Shown here piece by piece: positions 12,541-19,368 of a stretch of 47,168 nucleotides of DNA (position 1 is its first letter; each line of letters begins with the position of its first letter). The position numbers and the translations under genes are program-made. The DNA is from Acidobacteriota bacterium. GTDB taxonomy: Bacteria; Acidobacteriota; Thermoanaerobaculia; Thermoanaerobaculales; Sulfomarinibacteraceae. Below the pieces are notes generated by a model. That model was given only the letters and a program-made list of their open reading frames with translations, searched no databases and was not told the DNA's origin. The stretch lies in NCBI GenBank assembly GCA_013152925.1, contig JAADFK010000199.1:1-47168 (forward strand). Reading direction: 5' to 3'.

Positions 12541-12737
12541 TGGCAGCCTCCCTTGAAACCGGTTCAGCTTCATCATACCAGAACACGGACGGAGTGTTCA
12601 CGGGCATTTGACGGCCGGATTCGACCGCCGCCAGGACCCTCGAATCCAACCTGATGCCGCCTGGCGGCACCAGGTTTGACACAATCCCGCCGCCCGTTCC
12701 GGGCCCTCCGGACCGGCGGCGGCCGGCGGGCGAGCCG

Positions 12738-12746
12738 TGGTATAGT
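12738..12746 (+). promoter_or_regulatory. Extended -10 element upstream of miaB
   Basis: TGGTATAGT fits an extended -10 (TGn followed by TATAGT), 31 bp before the chosen miaB start. No matching -35 is seen, as expected for extended -10 promoters. Confidence 0.55.
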
Positions 12747-12777
12747 GAGCTGCGAATGGAGGCTACGGAGTCTCAGT

Positions 12778-14148
12778 ATGAGTATGACCTACACCATTGA
12801 AACGTGGGGTTGCCAGATGAACCACCACGACAGCGAGCGGCTCGCGGGAGCCTTCGAGCGGGCCGGGTTCCGGGCGGTCGACGACCCGCGGCAGGCGGGA
12901 ATCGTCGTTCTCAACACCTGCTCCGTCCGCGAAAAGCCCGTTCAGAAACTCCTCAGCCGCATCGGCGAGCTCTCCAACCTCGCCAACGGCCCGCGTATCG
13001 GCGTGTGCGGCTGCGTGGCCCAGCAGGAGGGCGAGGAGCTCCTCGCACGCGCGAAGGCGATCGCCTTCGTGCTCGGGCCGGGGCAGATCCACCGCCTTCC
13101 TGAAGCCCTCGACGCCATCGCCCGCGACCGCAGGGTCGTGCTGACCGGTTTCGATGCCGCCGCAGAACACAACGCCGGCGCCATCTTCCGCACGAGCTCC
13201 ACGCGCGGCATGATCACCGTCATCGAGGGGTGTAACGAGCACTGCACCTTCTGCGTCGTGCCCTACACCCGCGGGCCCGAGATCAGCCGGCCTCTCAAGG
13301 ACGTGGTGCAGGAGGCGAGCGGGCTCGCCGCCGCCGGCCTCAAGGAGATCGAGCTGCTGGGACAGACGATCAACGCCTACCGCTGCCCGGTGAGCGGCGC
13401 TGGCTTCGCCGAGCTTCTGGAAGAGATCGCCACCATCGAAGGGCCGAGCCGCATTCGCTTCATCACCTCCCATCCCCGTCTCTTCGACGATCGCCTGATC
13501 GACGTTCTCGCTCGGCATCCCAAGGTTTCACGGTACTTGCACCTTCCATTCCAATCGGGTTCCGACAGAATCCTCGCCAGGATGCGCCGCCGCTACACGC
13601 GGGCGGAGTATCTCGACCTGGTGCGGCGAATCCGCCGCGCCGTGCCCGACATCAATCTGTCCGCCGATGTCATCGTTGGTTTTCCCGGAGAGAGCGAGGA
13701 GGACTTCGCCGAGACCCTCTCCCTGCTGGAAGAGGTCCGTTTCGGCCAGGTCTTCGCGTTCGCGTACTCCCCGAGGCCTCGCACCCCTGCGGCGCGCTAC
13801 GGTGATCAGCTTCCCGGCGAGATCAAGAAGCGCCGCCTCGCCGCTCTCTTCGAGCGTACGGATGCGATCGCGACCGAGCTCAACCAGCGCCTCGTCGGTT
13901 CGGTCCTGCCCGTCCTGATCGACGGCGAGAGCCGCCGTTCCGCAAGCGACTGGCAGGGACGTTCCGAGGACAACCGCGTGGTCAACTTCCCCAAGGCCGG
14001 TGATTTCGGGGTGGGGGAGATCGTGAACGTGCGGATTGTCCGGGCCGGTGCCCACTCGCTCTATGGCCGGTGCGTCGAGGCAGTCCCCGCGCGGCTTCCT
14101 CTGGCCGAAACCGTCCCCGCCGGCCGGCCGGCAGACGACGCGCCTTGA
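12778..14148 (+). CDS. miaB: tRNA-2-methylthio-N6-dimethylallyladenosine synthase MiaB
   Basis: A 456-residue radical-SAM methylthiotransferase that adds a methylthio group to isopentenyl-adenosine-37 of tRNAs. Domain order: N-terminal UPF0004 domain with Cys12, Cys48 and Cys79 (GCQMN, NTCSVR, GVCGCVAQ) for one FeS cluster; radical-SAM core with CNEHCTFCVVPYTRG near residues 152-166; and a C-terminal TRAM domain ending near VRAGAHSLYGR. QEGEEL and YLHLPFQSGS are typical of MiaB rather than MtaB or RimO. I chose ATG 12778; a second ATG follows two codons later. It heads the miaB-bfn-parA-parB gene run. Confidence 0.95.
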   Translation: MSMTYTIETWGCQMNHHDSERLAGAFERAGFRAVDDPRQAGIVVLNTCSVREKPVQKLLSRIGELSNLANGPRIGVCGCVAQQEGEELLARAKAIAFVLGPGQIHRLPEALDAIARDRRVVLTGFDAAAEHNAGAIFRTSSTRGMITVIEGCNEHCTFCVVPYTRGPEISRPLKDVVQEASGLAAAGLKEIELLGQTINAYRCPVSGAGFAELLEEIATIEGPSRIRFITSHPRLFDDRLIDVLARHPKVSRYLHLPFQSGSDRILARMRRRYTRAEYLDLVRRIRRAVPDINLSADVIVGFPGESEEDFAETLSLLEEVRFGQVFAFAYSPRPRTPAARYGDQLPGEIKKRRLAALFERTDAIATELNQRLVGSVLPVLIDGESRRSASDWQGRSEDNRVVNFPKAGDFGVGEIVNVRIVRAGAHSLYGRCVEAVPARLPLAETVPAGRPADDAP

Positions 14149-14158
14149 CAAGCTGCCC

Positions 14159-14189
14159 TCTGGTCAACACATTACACATGTGGACCAGA
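14159..14189. repeat. Inverted repeat in the miaB-bfn gap
   Basis: TCTGGTCAACACAT, spacer TAC, ACATGTGGACCAGA: 11 of 14 positions pair. It occupies most of the gap after the miaB stop. It may be a hairpin acting on translation of the next gene, or an operator. It also overlaps an alternative GTG start at 14180. Confidence 0.6.
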
Positions 14190-14218
14190 AACATGACGAA
14201 CACGACGAGCTGATCCGG

Positions 14219-14686
14219 ATGGAGGTCAAGGGGTTGACCAATGACCCCGTGTCCAACACACCCATCGTGATCCTGGGGCGCGCTGACGGCGAGGCCTTTC
14301 TCCCCATCTGGATTGGCCTGTGCGAGGCCAACGCCATCGCCCTCGAGCTCGAGTCCATCACCACGCCCCGGCCGATGACCCATGACCTTCTGGCCGCCGT
14401 TCTTCGTGGGGCCCGCCATACCCTCGAGCGGGTGACGATCAACGCCCTTGAAGACAACGTCTTCCGGGCGGATCTCCAGTTCCGTGGGCCCGGCGGCGCC
14501 TCCTGGAGCCTCGACGCACGCCCCTCGGACGCCATTGCCCTCGCCCTCCGCACCAGGGCCGGCATTTTCGCCACTCCGGATGTTCTCAAGAAGGCCCAGC
14601 TGAGAGCGGCCGTGGATGAGGATCACGCTATCCGGCTTGTTCTCGAATGTTTACGACCGGAAGACCTTGGAAAGTACAAGATGTGA
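14219..14686 (+). CDS. Bifunctional-nuclease-family protein (DUF151)
   Basis: A protein of about 155 residues of the DUF151/BFN family. The conserved core is clear: VKGLTNDPVSNTPIVILG, LPIWIGLCEANAIALELE, RPMTHDLL, and LDARPSDAIALALRT, which carries the SRPSDAI-type motif. Some plant members have nuclease activity; the bacterial role is not settled. The start is uncertain. ATG 14219 gives MEVKGL, while GTG 14180 would add 13 residues and has no visible ribosome binding site. It lies 70 bp after miaB and has its own strong promoter for parA downstream, so it may end a transcription unit. Confidence 0.9.
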   Translation: MEVKGLTNDPVSNTPIVILGRADGEAFLPIWIGLCEANAIALELESITTPRPMTHDLLAAVLRGARHTLERVTINALEDNVFRADLQFRGPGGASWSLDARPSDAIALALRTRAGIFATPDVLKKAQLRAAVDEDHAIRLVLECLRPEDLGKYKM

Positions 14687-14757: not shown

Positions 14758-15519
14758 ATGATCATCTCCATAACCAATCAAAAGGGCGGCGTGGGCAAGA
14801 CCACCACGGCCGTCAATCTGTCCGCGGGTCTCGCCGAAAAGGGACTCAAGACCCTGGTTGTCGACCTCGATCCCCAGGGGAACTCCACCATGTCGTTCAC
14901 CGATGTGACGCCGGAAGAGCCCAACATGTTCGATGTTCTCGCCCGGACGCTTCCCATGGACGAGATCATCCGTCAGAGCGCTGAAAGCCCCAACCTTTTC
15001 GTGGCGCCTTCCAGGATCTCCATGGCGAAATTCGAAGCTTCCCTGGTGGGGGAGTTGGACGCTCCCTACCGCCTCAAGGACTCCGTGGAGCTCGTTGCCG
15101 ACGAGTACGACGCCATCATCATCGACACCCCGCCGACGCTGGGGCTGACGACGGTGAACTCCCTGGTCGCTTCCACGCACGTTCTCATTCCTATCCAGGC
15201 CTCCTACTTTGCACTGGAAGGCACCGACGACCTCCTGGAGACCATCGACAAGATCAAGGCCCGTCCCAACCGAGAGCTCCGGATCCTTGGAGTTTTGGTC
15301 ACGCTTTTCGACAAGCGGACCATCCTCTCCCGGCAGGTCTTCGAGGAGATCAAGGGCGTTTTCGGGGACCTGGTTTTCGACAGTGTCATCAGCAAGTCCG
15401 TTCGCCTCGAGGAATCCCCCGCCCACCGTCAGAGTATCTTCACCTACGCTCCGAGCTCCTCCGGGGCCTTCGAGTACTACCAGCTGTGCGAGGAGGTTCT
15501 GCAACGTGTCGGCACCTAA
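14758..15519 (+). CDS. parA: ParA/Soj-type chromosome partitioning ATPase
   Basis: A 253-residue deviant-Walker-A ATPase of the ParA/Soj family, which with ParB and DNA drives chromosome or plasmid segregation. KGGVGKTT lies at residues 9-16, VDLDPQGN near 41, and IIDTPPTLGLTTVN (Walker B region) near 122. There is no N-terminal helix-turn-helix, as in chromosomal (type Ib-like or Soj) rather than P1-type ParA. AGGGG upstream of the ATG is a weak-to-moderate ribosome binding site. It is followed directly by parB with a 14-bp overlap, and both are served by the promoter at 14696-14725. Confidence 0.95.
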   Translation: MIISITNQKGGVGKTTTAVNLSAGLAEKGLKTLVVDLDPQGNSTMSFTDVTPEEPNMFDVLARTLPMDEIIRQSAESPNLFVAPSRISMAKFEASLVGELDAPYRLKDSVELVADEYDAIIIDTPPTLGLTTVNSLVASTHVLIPIQASYFALEGTDDLLETIDKIKARPNRELRILGVLVTLFDKRTILSRQVFEEIKGVFGDLVFDSVISKSVRLEESPAHRQSIFTYAPSSSGAFEYYQLCEEVLQRVGT

Positions 15520-16441
15520 ACGCGGCCTTCCAGAGAGACGCCGGATGCGCCACGACCGGCATTTCGTCGACGAGCTCACCGGTCGGATGGGGGAGGGGTT
15601 CGGCCTCATGGTCCCCATCACCTCCATCCGCAGCAACCACGACCAGCCCAGATCTTCTCTGGGCGATCTTTCGGACCTCGTCGACAGCATCCGCCGTCAC
15701 GGCATCCTCGAACCCCTCCTCGTTCGCCGGACCGAAGGCCGTTCGGAGTACGAGCTCGTTTCCGGGGAGCGGCGCTTTCACGCTGCCCTCGAGGCGGGCC
15801 TCCACGAGGTTCCCTGCATCGAGCTCGAGGTCACCGATCAGCACGCTCTCGAAATCGCCCTTATCGAGAACCTCCAGCGAAAGGACCTCGACCCCTTCGA
15901 GGAGGCGGAGGGCTTCCAGACGCTGATCGAAAAGTACGGCTACACCCACGCCCAGGTTGCCGAGGCCGTGGGACGATCCCGTGTCACCGTCACCGAGGCC
16001 CTCCGGATCCTCCGGCTTCCGCCCCCCGTCCGTGCCCGATGTCGGCATGCCGACATTCACGCCAAGGGCGTTCTCCTGGAGCTCGCACGTATCGACGATC
16101 CGGGTCTTCTCGAAGAAGCTCTCCAGGCCCTCGAAAAGGGCGACCTCGATCGTGCCGCACTGCGTCTCATGAGGAAAGACCCCGAGGATGGCGACGGAGC
16201 CACCACGAGCTCCGAAGAAGATGGAGCGGCACCCGAGGTGGCCAAAGCCTCCGGGCAGGGTGCACGCCGCCCCTTCGTCTTCCGCTTCCGCCATCCCGAG
16301 GAGCCGGTCACCATCTCGATCTCCTTCAAGGGCGCCGAGGAACAGCCCGAGCCCGGGCGCCTGATCCACATCCTCGAGGAGCTTCTCGATGACCTCAGGC
16401 GCCAGGCGGCGGAGAACGACTCCCCAGGCACAGACTCGTAG
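15506..16441 (+). CDS. parB: ParB/Spo0J-type partition protein
   Basis: A 311-residue ParB-family CTPase and DNA-binding protein. Near the N-terminus, VPITSIRSNHDQPRSSLGDL is the usual first strand region. SGERRFHAAL is the CTP-binding GERRxRA box and LIENLQRKDLDPFEEAEGF is the second conserved box. The helix-turn-helix is YTHAQVAEAVGRSRVTVTEA. A charged linker and a C-terminal dimerisation region follow. I chose GTG 15506, which has AGGAGG nine bases upstream and overlaps the parA end; the track's earlier start reads parA out of frame. No parS-like site was found nearby. The next feature downstream is a candidate dif site. Confidence 0.93.
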   Translation: MSAPKRGLPERRRMRHDRHFVDELTGRMGEGFGLMVPITSIRSNHDQPRSSLGDLSDLVDSIRRHGILEPLLVRRTEGRSEYELVSGERRFHAALEAGLHEVPCIELEVTDQHALEIALIENLQRKDLDPFEEAEGFQTLIEKYGYTHAQVAEAVGRSRVTVTEALRILRLPPPVRARCRHADIHAKGVLLELARIDDPGLLEEALQALEKGDLDRAALRLMRKDPEDGDGATTSSEEDGAAPEVAKASGQGARRPFVFRFRHPEEPVTISISFKGAEEQPEPGRLIHILEELLDDLRRQAAENDSPGTDS

Positions 16442-16570: not shown

Positions 16571-16740
16571 GCGTTGGGTATGTGCTCGTCGAACACGCCT
16601 CGGACGGCGAGCGTGGCCCCACCGGTCCGCCCATCGCAGCGGGAACGGGTATGTGCGGTGCGTTGGGTGCCGACCGGGACCCTTCGAGAAGCGAGCGTGG
16701 CCTTACCAGTCCGCCCATCGCAGCGGGAACGGGCATATTA
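16571..16740. repeat. Two direct repeats of about 85 bp next to the candidate dif site
   Basis: GCGTTGGGT starts both units (16571 and 16660). Within each is a 48-bp core, at 16607 and 16691, starting GCGAGCGTGGCC and ending GCAGCGGGAACGGG plus YATRT; the two cores match at 43 of 48 positions. The second unit runs straight into the palindrome at 16735. The 129 bp before the first unit show nothing recognisable. Confidence 0.8.
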
Positions 16741-16765
16741 TGTCAACCGCAGGTTGACATAATAT
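16735..16765. repeat. Perfect AT-rich inverted repeat, 14-bp arms
   Basis: ATATTATGTCAACC, spacer GCA, GGTTGACATAATAT. It is strikingly AT-rich in GC-rich surroundings. Each arm contains TTATGTCAACC, the XerD-type half of the adjacent dif candidate, so the inner half-site is present twice in opposite orientations. Confidence 0.95.
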
Positions 16766-16779
16766 ATCTTATCGGACGT
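16752..16779 (-). other. dif: Candidate dif site (XerC/XerD chromosome dimer resolution)
   Basis: On the minus strand the 28 bp read ACGTCCGATAA, central GATATA, then TTATGTCAACC. This is the 11-6-11 layout of bacterial dif sites. As I recall them, Firmicutes dif has an ACTT...A-rich XerC arm with TTATGTWAACT, and Actinobacteria dif has CCGATAA and TTATGTCAAGT. The candidate shares CCGATAA, a TA-rich centre and TTATGTCAA with these. It is intergenic, between parB and lptFG. The match is by eye from remembered consensus sequences. Confidence 0.75.
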
Positions 16780-16797: not shown

Positions 16798-16866
16798 TGT
16801 GGAAGCTCTCCTGGCCTGTGGAAAAGCTGTCGAGAAGCCCGCGACCTCCCCCGGCCCTGTGGAAAA
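16798..16866 (+). promoter_or_regulatory. Three TGTGGAA repeats resembling DnaA boxes
   Basis: TTGTGGAAG at 16798, TGTGGAAAA at 16817 and TGTGGAAAA at 16858 each differ by one or two bases from TGTGGATAA, the DnaA box. They fill the leader between the dif candidate and lptFG. They could be weak DnaA boxes or coincidence. Confidence 0.25.
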
Positions 16867-16887: not shown

Positions 16888-19368
16888 ATGACGACTCGCG
16901 TTCGCCGTTTCCTCGCCGCTCTGAAACCCTTTTCCCAGGTGGACCGCCTGGTGCTGCACGAGGTTCTCGGGCCCACCGCCCTGGGATTCGTCGTCTACAC
17001 GTTCTTCCTGATGATGCGAGCGATCTTCAGCCTGGTCGAAGAAGTTCTCGTCCGCGGGCTGTCCTTGATGGACGCCGGCCGTCTGCTCTACGTCACGGTG
17101 CCGCACGTGGTGGTCCTGACACTGCCCATGAGCTTTCTTTTTGGCGTCCTGATCGGGGTCGGACGGCTCCACGGAGACAACGAGGTCATCGCTCTTGAGG
17201 CTGGAGGGATTTCACTCGCACGGCTCCTCCGGCCGGTCCTCATGTTGTCCCTGATCCTGATGAGCTTCAACCTGTGGCTGACCACTGGTGTGATGCCCGA
17301 AGCCAACCGGGAGCTTCGGCAGCTCAAGGTACGGCTCTTCAAGTCCGCCAGTCTGATAGGCCGTATCGAGCCAAAGGTCTTCTACGAGGACTTCCCGGGG
17401 ATGCTTCTGTACGTTCGCAGCATCGACCCGGGAACGGGGATCTGGCGGGGCGTCTTGATTTTCCAGCGGGGAGACTCGGGACGGGGTTCACAGCTCGTGG
17501 TTGCTGAACGCGGGCGAATGGCCGAGCGGGCGCCGGAGGCTGGCGAAGCTCCGGGCGCCATTGAGAGACCCTGGCTGATGCTCAGTGGGGTGACCCGCTA
17601 CCAGTTCGACCCCAAGGACCCAGCGAAGCTTAGTATCAACAGCAGCGAGTCGGAGCTGGTTCAGCCCTCGCCGAAACACAGGGGTACGGTTACGATCAAT
17701 CTTGGCATGCGCGAGCGGTCCACCGGCGAGCTGCTGGGAATCGTCCGGAGGGCGGCTCATTCCCGCAAGGGTGGGCGTGGCGGGGCCGCATCGGGGAGTG
17801 TCAGCCGGCGCGATCTCGATTTCGCCAGGGTGGAGTTGCAGAAGCGGATTGCCATTCCGGCGGCGTGCTTCGTATTCGGGTTGATCGCCGTTCCCCTGGC
17901 CATCGGGTCCCGTGCCACCGGCCGCGGACGTGGTTTTCTGATCTCCGTCGGCGTCATCATCGTGTACTACGTCATCCTCAATAACGGGGAGTTTCTGGCA
18001 CGCCAGGGGAGAATCCCGGCCTTTGCCGGTGTCTGGGCCGCCAACCTGCTGGCGGCCGGCACCGCGCTGGTCCTTCTCCGCCGCAAGGGGCGTTGGCTCG
18101 GTGAACGGAGCCGTGGCAGTGGTTGGATGGCCGCGGCGATCCAGGCCGTCGCCGACTGGCTGCAAACCGTGCGGACGGCGTTGTCCGCGGGTGGAAGGAC
18201 GGATGTCGCAAGGCCTCCGCTGACGGGATCGATCCCTCTCGCGCTCCAGAGACAACGTTCGACCGTGCGCTTCCCCACCCTGCTGGACCGGTATCTCAGC
18301 CTGCGTTTCCTTGGCCCGGTGGCCTTCGTTCTGCTCAGCGTTTCGGCGCTCTACATCATCGTCGATCTTGCGGACAAGATCGATGAGATGGCCAAGCACA
18401 CCGCAACGGCGGTCATTTTCCTGCGGTACTACTGGAACATCATCCCGCAGATCGTCCTGGACGTTACACCGCTGGGGATGCTGATCGCGGTATTGCTGCT
18501 GTTCTCGCTTCTCGAGAAACACCTGGAGCTGACAGCTTTGAAAGCCGGCGGCATTTCGCTGTACCGCGTCATCGTGCCGATCTTGCTGGTCACACTTGCG
18601 GCCACCGCCGGCATTGCGGTCTTCCAGGAATCGGTGGCGCCCAGGGCCAATCGCAAGGCCCAACAGCTCCTCGACATTATCAAGGGCCGGAAGGCCCCAC
18701 ATGCCGTCATGGTCGCCGACCGGCAGTGGCTCTTTTCCCGTGACGGCACGACCTTGTTCAACTACCTCCGGTACGATCCCGAGCGGCAAACCCTGATCCG
18801 GTTCTCCATGTACCGCTTCGATGACACGGGCAAGCTCTCCTTCCAGCTCTTCGCCGAACGGGCGCAGTACGTGGACGGCGCCTGGGAGGTCGATTCCGGC
18901 TGGTTCCGGCAGATCCACCCCAACGGGAGGGACGAGTTCCACAAGGTGACCTCCCGCATGGCGCTCCAGGTGGCGGAGCCACCCGGTTATTTCGCCGCGA
19001 AGCGGCACGCCCCCTCCGAGATGTCCTACCGGGAGCTCCGGCGGCACATTGCCGACCTGGCGGCCTCCGGCTACCACTCCAGCCGGCTGGATGTCCGTCT
19101 CCAGCAGAAGCTGACCTATCCCCTCTCGGTCTTCATCATGGTCTTGCTCGGCCTGCCCTTCGGCCTCAACCGGAGCGGCGGCCGGCGCGCCTCGGCCATG
19201 CAGGGCGTCGCCGTGGGGCTGGCATTGGGTATCGGCTACTTTCTCCTGATGGCGTTGTTCGGCAAGATGGGAGAGGCCAATCTCCTCCCGCCGGTTCTCG
19301 GCGCCTGGGCTCCGGTGATCCTCGCCGGACTCTTCGGGATCAACCGGCTGACGACCCTGCGGACCTGA
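16888..19368 (+). CDS. Fused LptF-LptG lipopolysaccharide export permease
   Basis: An 826-residue inner-membrane permease. Two complete LptF/LptG-type modules are joined in one chain: residues 1 to about 410 and about 455 to 826. Each module starts with LDRY/VDRLVL-type sequence (VDRLVLHEVLGPTALGFVVY; LDRYLSLRFLGPVAFVLL). In each this is followed by paired transmembrane helices, a periplasmic beta-jellyroll region (YEDFPGMLLYV; RQWLFSRDGTTLFNYLRYD), and two or more closing helices including LxxPLAIGSRATGRG or LGLPFGLNRSGGR. In most bacteria these are two genes working with the ATPase LptB. No lptB is present here, but lptE is at 39555-40100. The ATG at 16888 lacks a clear ribosome binding site; TAAACT at 16872 may be a -10. 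The stop overlaps the convergent hydrolase gene. Confidence 0.92.
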   Translation: MTTRVRRFLAALKPFSQVDRLVLHEVLGPTALGFVVYTFFLMMRAIFSLVEEVLVRGLSLMDAGRLLYVTVPHVVVLTLPMSFLFGVLIGVGRLHGDNEVIALEAGGISLARLLRPVLMLSLILMSFNLWLTTGVMPEANRELRQLKVRLFKSASLIGRIEPKVFYEDFPGMLLYVRSIDPGTGIWRGVLIFQRGDSGRGSQLVVAERGRMAERAPEAGEAPGAIERPWLMLSGVTRYQFDPKDPAKLSINSSESELVQPSPKHRGTVTINLGMRERSTGELLGIVRRAAHSRKGGRGGAASGSVSRRDLDFARVELQKRIAIPAACFVFGLIAVPLAIGSRATGRGRGFLISVGVIIVYYVILNNGEFLARQGRIPAFAGVWAANLLAAGTALVLLRRKGRWLGERSRGSGWMAAAIQAVADWLQTVRTALSAGGRTDVARPPLTGSIPLALQRQRSTVRFPTLLDRYLSLRFLGPVAFVLLSVSALYIIVDLADKIDEMAKHTATAVIFLRYYWNIIPQIVLDVTPLGMLIAVLLLFSLLEKHLELTALKAGGISLYRVIVPILLVTLAATAGIAVFQESVAPRANRKAQQLLDIIKGRKAPHAVMVADRQWLFSRDGTTLFNYLRYDPERQTLIRFSMYRFDDTGKLSFQLFAERAQYVDGAWEVDSGWFRQIHPNGRDEFHKVTSRMALQVAEPPGYFAAKRHAPSEMSYRELRRHIADLAASGYHSSRLDVRLQQKLTYPLSVFIMVLLGLPFGLNRSGGRRASAMQGVAVGLALGIGYFLLMALFGKMGEANLLPPVLGAWAPVILAGLFGINRLTTLRT

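Follow-up and report, generated by a model that had tools for sequence, protein, structure and literature searches.

Chromosomal ParABS systems are regarded as machines that partition the replication origin, and the handling of the terminus is assigned to FtsK, XerCD, MatP and ZapT. To our knowledge, MatP and ZapT do not belong to the ParB family and have no ParA ATPase. As described previously (PMC7333895) and in part generally known, ParB forms a CTP clamp that slides from parS, and ParA is stimulated by the ParB N-terminus. Six parS-contacting residues (Q162, G170, K171, S172, N178 and R204) are conserved in ParB and in Noc, the nucleoid occlusion protein of Firmicutes, which has no ParA partner and whose sites occur genome-wide except at the terminus (PMC7383237). 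With respect to dif, the target of XerCD, sites were predicted in three Acidobacteria by a logic similar to ours (Kono et al. 2011, PMC3025954), so that a dif site was to be expected in the genome studied here. A ParABS system at the terminus, or any ParABS system in Acidobacteriota, was not found described in the open-licence papers searched, which by itself does not prove novelty.

Here, we analysed a window of 47,168 nucleotides from an Acidobacteriota bacterium of the class Thermoanaerobaculia. We consider it rather likely that the dif site in this window belongs to a terminus locus with a complete second ParABS system, made up of ParA2, ParB2 and the candidate parS2 ATGTCGGCNNGCCGACAT.

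The dif site and the replication terminus

The dif site is located on the minus strand at 16752-16779 and shows exactly the 11-6-11 layout that a preliminary description of the window had claimed, with the XerC arm ACGTCCGATAA, the centre GATATA and the XerD arm TTATGTCAACC. With up to one mismatch, the XerD arm occurs twice in the window, both times at the dif locus, compared to 0.08 expected occurrences. The 28-bp site is present as a single copy in the 3.67-Mb genome, even when three mismatches are allowed. A survey of 148 genomes of the class, carried out with a degenerate form of the site, detected dif in 131 of them, nearly always once, with a reversed-pattern control close to zero. The named relatives of the gene neighbouring dif are Thermoanaerobaculia MAGs, i.e. 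Acidobacteriota. Genes for both XerC and XerD were found in the genome of the window, together with a gene for FtsK; here, XerD scores 371 bits, above the cut-off of its model, and XerC scores 332 bits, just below its cut-off of 335. The single copy per chromosome, the conservation in relatives and the xerC/xerD genes, all of which the preliminary description had proposed to look for, were thus found. We are nearly certain that 16752-16779 represents the chromosomal dif, at which recombination by XerCD is predicted. The expectation that the locus gives the dif sequence of the lineage holds for the 28-bp site, which is conserved class-wide, but not for the inverted XerD half, which is no part of the lineage's dif. 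The dif sequence of the class Thermoanaerobaculia is now provided.

Beyond XerC and XerD, the genome encodes two additional XerD-like tyrosine recombinases (G000:C188:3455-4321 and G000:C110:244-1104). The 10.2-Mb genome G096 contains six dif-like matches on several contigs (C15, C25, C41, C43 and C44), which possibly correspond to Xer-using integrated elements or extra replicons.

The genome of the window is a fragmented assembly, and the position of dif at the skew switch was judged from the contigs of relatives. In the 3.88-Mb contig of G045, the cumulative GC-skew maximum (1914035) lies 55 bp from dif (1913967-1913991), with one arm positive and the other negative over the sampled contig, except for its first end. 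The distance between the skew maximum and dif amounts to 3-18 kb in G109, G014, G010 and G107, and G053 shows no clear skew turning point. Within the window, the peak of the cumulative skew is at 11.6 kb and lies 5 kb away from dif. In G066, which consists of a single 4.63-Mb contig, dnaA and dif are 2.33 Mb apart and hence opposite each other. In line with these data, the site marks the terminus as claimed and coincides with a skew turning point in relatives; with the usual sign, however, this turning point is a maximum and not the minimum that had been anticipated. A reading of the locus as oriC, suggested by the ParAB genes, DnaA-box words and AT-rich DNA beside the site, was considered first and then rejected, since dnaA with its own boxes is located on another contig, the dnaA loci of relatives carry canonical parS and the sign of the skew is of the terminus type. 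With regard to KOPS, the skewed octamers in G045 are generic G-rich words only, which barely replicate in G010.

Like the XerCD/dif systems of E. coli, B. subtilis and Actinobacteria, the site combines an 11-6-11 layout and a single copy at the skew switch with the presence of xerC, xerD and ftsK. Unlike in those systems, dif of the present lineage is flanked by a ParABS locus, in families f1 and f2 additionally by DnaA-box-like repeats, and the copy in the window carries an inverted XerD half.

The ParA2-ParB2 genes and the candidate parS2

On one side of dif, all on the plus strand, lie miaB (12676-14148), encoding a MiaB-like radical SAM methylthiotransferase, BFN (14036-14686), encoding a bifunctional nuclease domain protein whose true start is probably after 14148, parA2 (14758-15519) and parB2 (15518-16441, with a provisional start codon slightly upstream). 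The parA2-parB2 pair ends 0.3 kb from dif, and on the far side of dif follows lptF (16888-19368, plus strand), which encodes an LptF/LptG-type permease; miaB, BFN and lptF are conserved neighbours. The gene order miaB-BFN-parA2-parB2-dif-lptF is shared by many families of the class, and in genus g47 of family f13 (G090, G101), where miaB and BFN lie across dif, parA2-parB2-dif are still together. All 24 genomes checked contain two ParBs, one of the origin type and one 0.3-1.3 kb from dif; in family f6, outside these 24 genomes, ParB2 is found 2.5-6.5 kb from dif. Whenever the gene of the origin-type ParB shares a contig with dnaA, the two are no more than about 20 kb apart; in the genome of the window and in G004, they are on separate contigs because these assemblies are fragmented.

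The miaB-BFN-parA2-parB2 cluster is also seen, whole or mostly, in other classes of Acidobacteriota (X050-X059, L050-L059). The distance between ParB2 and dif is 3-5 kb in two such loci (Terriglobia-like, where seen).

ParA2 carries the Walker motif KGGVGKT expected for the ATPase of a ParABS system. ParB2 possesses CTP-binding motifs, with the CTPase motifs GERR and ENLQRKDL retained, an N-terminal RGLP..MRHD motif, an HTH and a C-terminal domain, as expected for a ParB/Noc-type CTPase. Its predicted model comprises an N-terminal CTPase domain, an HTH domain, a disordered linker and a C-terminal beta-beta-alpha domain, and the predicted fold matches ParB, Spo0J and Noc structures. In a phylogenetic tree, all 40 ParB2 rows form one clade (100/100) apart from the origin ParBs, which spans several Acidobacteriota lineages. 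When we placed the residue numbers of the parS contacts on the ParB2 alignment, three of the six were found to be replaced: Q162 is H, N178 is E, and the GHAR stretch with R204 is lost. Hence, a different target site would be expected for ParB2. Within the class, the dnaA loci carry canonical parS (TGTTNCACGTGNAACA type), which was not found near dif. The dif locus shows neither the parS type nor the origin-proximal location of a canonical origin ParABS. Against the NCBIfam Noc model, ParB2 scores 146.8 bits, below the cut-off of 315. Similar to Noc, ParB2 is a second ParB-family protein with an apparently changed DNA specificity; unlike Noc, its locus includes a ParA, and its candidate sites are at the terminus.

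A blind search for palindromes common to dif regions, made with no prior assumption, returned TGTCGGCNNGCCGACA far above shuffled controls. Extended, it becomes the 18-bp ATGTCGGCNNGCCGACAT, which in the window lies at 16039-16056 as the palindrome ATGTCGGCATGCCGACAT inside parB2 and which, classed by sequence only, represents a candidate palindromic centromere near the ParABS genes. At up to one mismatch, it is the sole copy in the genome of the window, compared to 0.07 expected, and is present in 108 of the 148 class genomes; about half of the 40 genomes lacking it belong to genus g21. At up to two mismatches, none was detected in 286 kb of origin loci or in the rest of long contigs. Among the matches listed, 36 genomes have parS2 and dif on one contig, and in 32 of these the two are at most 5 kb apart (median 2.1 kb); in the other four, all from f6 (G040, G043, G049 and G055), parS2 is 47-59 kb away on the same contig, and a few single-mismatch matches occur elsewhere (G093:C54, G069, G140 and G060). 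In the collection of viral contigs, 13 matches were found, which by a rough estimate is about chance level.

In f1, f2, f4 and f10 as well as in three of the four Blastocatellia-like loci, the palindrome lies inside parB2; elsewhere, it is located within parA2 or BFN or upstream of them. Multiple copies are present in f12. In 11 of 12 aligned parB2 genes of f1/f2, its codons are TGT CGG CAT GCC GAC, and the twelfth differs only at CAC; TGT and CAT are thus used at parS2 even though the codons preferred are TGC and CAC. The putative parS2 is codon-constrained inside parB2 and relocates beside parAB2 in other families. Alternatively, the palindrome could mainly serve the transcriptional control of parAB2, as an operator for ParB2 or for a different regulator. 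Such a function would fit its location upstream of parA2 in many families as well as the autoregulation that is common among partition genes. We nevertheless regard it as improbable, since the palindrome is placed deep inside parB2 in f1, f2, f4 and f10, a second copy is found 3 kb away beyond lptF in G010 and G014, and G096 and G107 contain several copies each.

Judged by these features, ParA2, ParB2 and parS2 very probably constitute a real partition system. Compared to the canonical chromosomal ParABS systems (Spo0J/Soj, Caulobacter, Myxococcus), it shares the ParA Walker ATPase, the ParB CTPase fold with HTH and C-terminal domain, the RGL-type motif at the N-terminus and a palindromic site near the genes. 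It differs from them in being located at dif instead of oriC, in its palindrome, in three of the six parS contacts and in its coexistence with a normal origin ParABS.

A possible function at the terminus

Given what is established for ParB proteins (PMC7333895, and in part generally known), parS2 would be the loading site from which ParB2 would spread across dif. In the mechanism that we propose, ParB2 dimers would occupy parS2, at a distance of about 2 kb from dif, form a clamp loaded with CTP and then slide along the terminus, across dif as well. Nucleoid-bound ParA2, stimulated by the N-terminal motif of ParB2, would move or position this complex, and sister termini could thereby be placed or separated while FtsK and XerCD are active at the septum. 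In its proposed role, the system would resemble MatP/matS and ZapT, which bind specific sites at the terminus and organise it (PMC8242196, PMC7858052), while representing a ParABS-based solution. The chances that the ParABS system at dif has a dedicated role at the terminus appear about even to us. We are evenly divided as well on the broader proposal that, in much of the Acidobacteriota, the dif region is positioned or segregated by a second ParABS that has a parS of its own, with origin and terminus being partitioned separately. The data suggest that these Acidobacteriota possess a 'centromere' at the replication terminus in addition to the usual one at the origin.

Genus g21 of family f7 is informative with respect to the parts of the system. 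Here, ParB2 is still encoded beside dif, while no ParA-like gene was found within 200 kb in G045 and no parS2 near dif in the genus. Moreover, the N-terminal motif RGLP..MRHD..HFVEEL, present in nearly every ParB2 outside g21, is missing from ParB2 of the three g21 members examined. That ParA2, palindrome and motif were lost together is what would be expected of a motif that contacts ParA2 and of a palindrome that serves as the partition site.

Several observations count against a second ParABS system stationed at the terminus, i.e. the distances in f6, the presence of ParB2 beside dif in g21 without ParA2 and parS2, the 40 class genomes without the palindrome at up to one mismatch, and the Terriglobia-like loci (X054-X059), in which no parS2-like palindrome was found although ParA2 and ParB2 are present. 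The adjacency of ParB2 and dif may in part be inherited gene order. Taken further, dif could be ordinary and parAB2-parS2 a real system that resides at the terminus merely because of ancient gene order and serves a purpose unconnected with dif, e.g. additional SMC loading or chromosome organisation in general. This is in agreement with miaB, BFN and lptF being equally syntenic without a known terminus role, with the in-place inversion of dif against its gene neighbours in f7 g21, f10, f14, f15 and f17, and with parS2 being 47-59 kb from dif in f6. The terminus, though, is usually a much rearranged region, and the link between parAB2 and dif survives across many families in spite of this, and the two are still linked in G090 and G101, where other neighbours have moved. 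We therefore consider old gene order a serious but rather unlikely explanation.

If the proposed terminus function holds true, a conserved ParABS system with a changed centromere at dif would represent a new way of managing the terminus and, at the same time, a natural case of ParB specificity change in a large, little-studied phylum. It makes testable predictions, among them a specified binding site of 18 bp, a motif for ParA binding and a genus that lost all three parts.

The inverted XerD half and DnaA-box-like words

The perfect 14-nt inverted repeat that had been described beside dif was confirmed. It is formed by an extra XerD half on the plus strand (16735-16748), which matches 16752-16765 of dif at 14 of 14 positions across a 3-nt loop; the probability of such a 14-mer occurring by chance within 150 nt is about 3e-8. 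The extra half is private to the genome of the window and was found in none of its family members. Among 63 distinct dif sites, an inverted XerD half within 150 nt is restricted to the window and to genus g45, of which two members have one (13/14 and 12/14 matches, 42-nt spacing from dif). A reading of the repeat as a promoter or operator was dropped because the repeat is private whereas the dif arms are conserved.

At 16607-16652 and 16691-16736 lie the two copies of a 46-nt direct repeat with 91% identity, the second of which abuts the inverted XerD half. This suggests that the half is the product of a local copying event. The intergenic DNA around dif of the window is unique in the genome. 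Inversion of dif in place, with flanking genes keeping their order, is seen in several families (loci G109, G045, G066, G069, G097, G116 and G050). In view of this, one may speculate that the inverted half-copies are traces of a dif-flipping process. An early idea that the flips prove a functional linkage of dif to its neighbours was withdrawn, because dif alone inverts while the order of the flanking genes stays.

The inverted half could also be functional, e.g. as an extra XerD-binding site like those for SMC unloading in B. subtilis, where XerD unloads SMC at the terminus (Karaboja et al. 2021, as cited in PMC8242196). A similar inverted half having arisen independently in g45 would be compatible with this. 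Its absence from dif of every relative outside g45, the lack of enrichment of XerD-half words around dif in long contigs and the adjoining 46-nt direct repeat, which suggests local copying, make a function of the half very doubtful.

Another conceivable origin of the whole locus is a domesticated plasmid or mobile-element remnant that entered at dif via XerCD and brought along its own ParABS. Elements that use XerCD are known to enter at dif, and the inverted half-dif copies beside dif in the window and in g45 could be taken as a hint in this direction. Plasmid ParBs among the matches listed, however, are at most about 43% identical to ParB2 over part of its length, the ParB2 tree broadly follows the host families, and the neighbours are core genes with intergenic DNA that occurs nowhere else in the genome, which renders such a remnant quite unlikely; moreover, it would concern the origin of the locus and not its present function.

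Beyond dif, the window contains an array of DnaA-box-like words, starting with TGTGGAA on the plus strand (16798-16804) and followed on the minus strand by two copies of TTTTCCACA (16817-16825 and 16858-16866), a word identical to the boxes beside dnaA in the same genome, where they directly follow dnaA (L161 5376-5436). In f1/f2 (window 16798-16866; L020-L034, L036 and L047), two to three TGTGGAA(AA) words follow dif, at 18 nt and then about 18 nt further. At least two such words within 70 nt were counted at 17 of 33 dif sites, compared to 0.03-0.05 expected. In f5/f6, a TGTGGAA(AA) word is often placed directly against the XerC arm.
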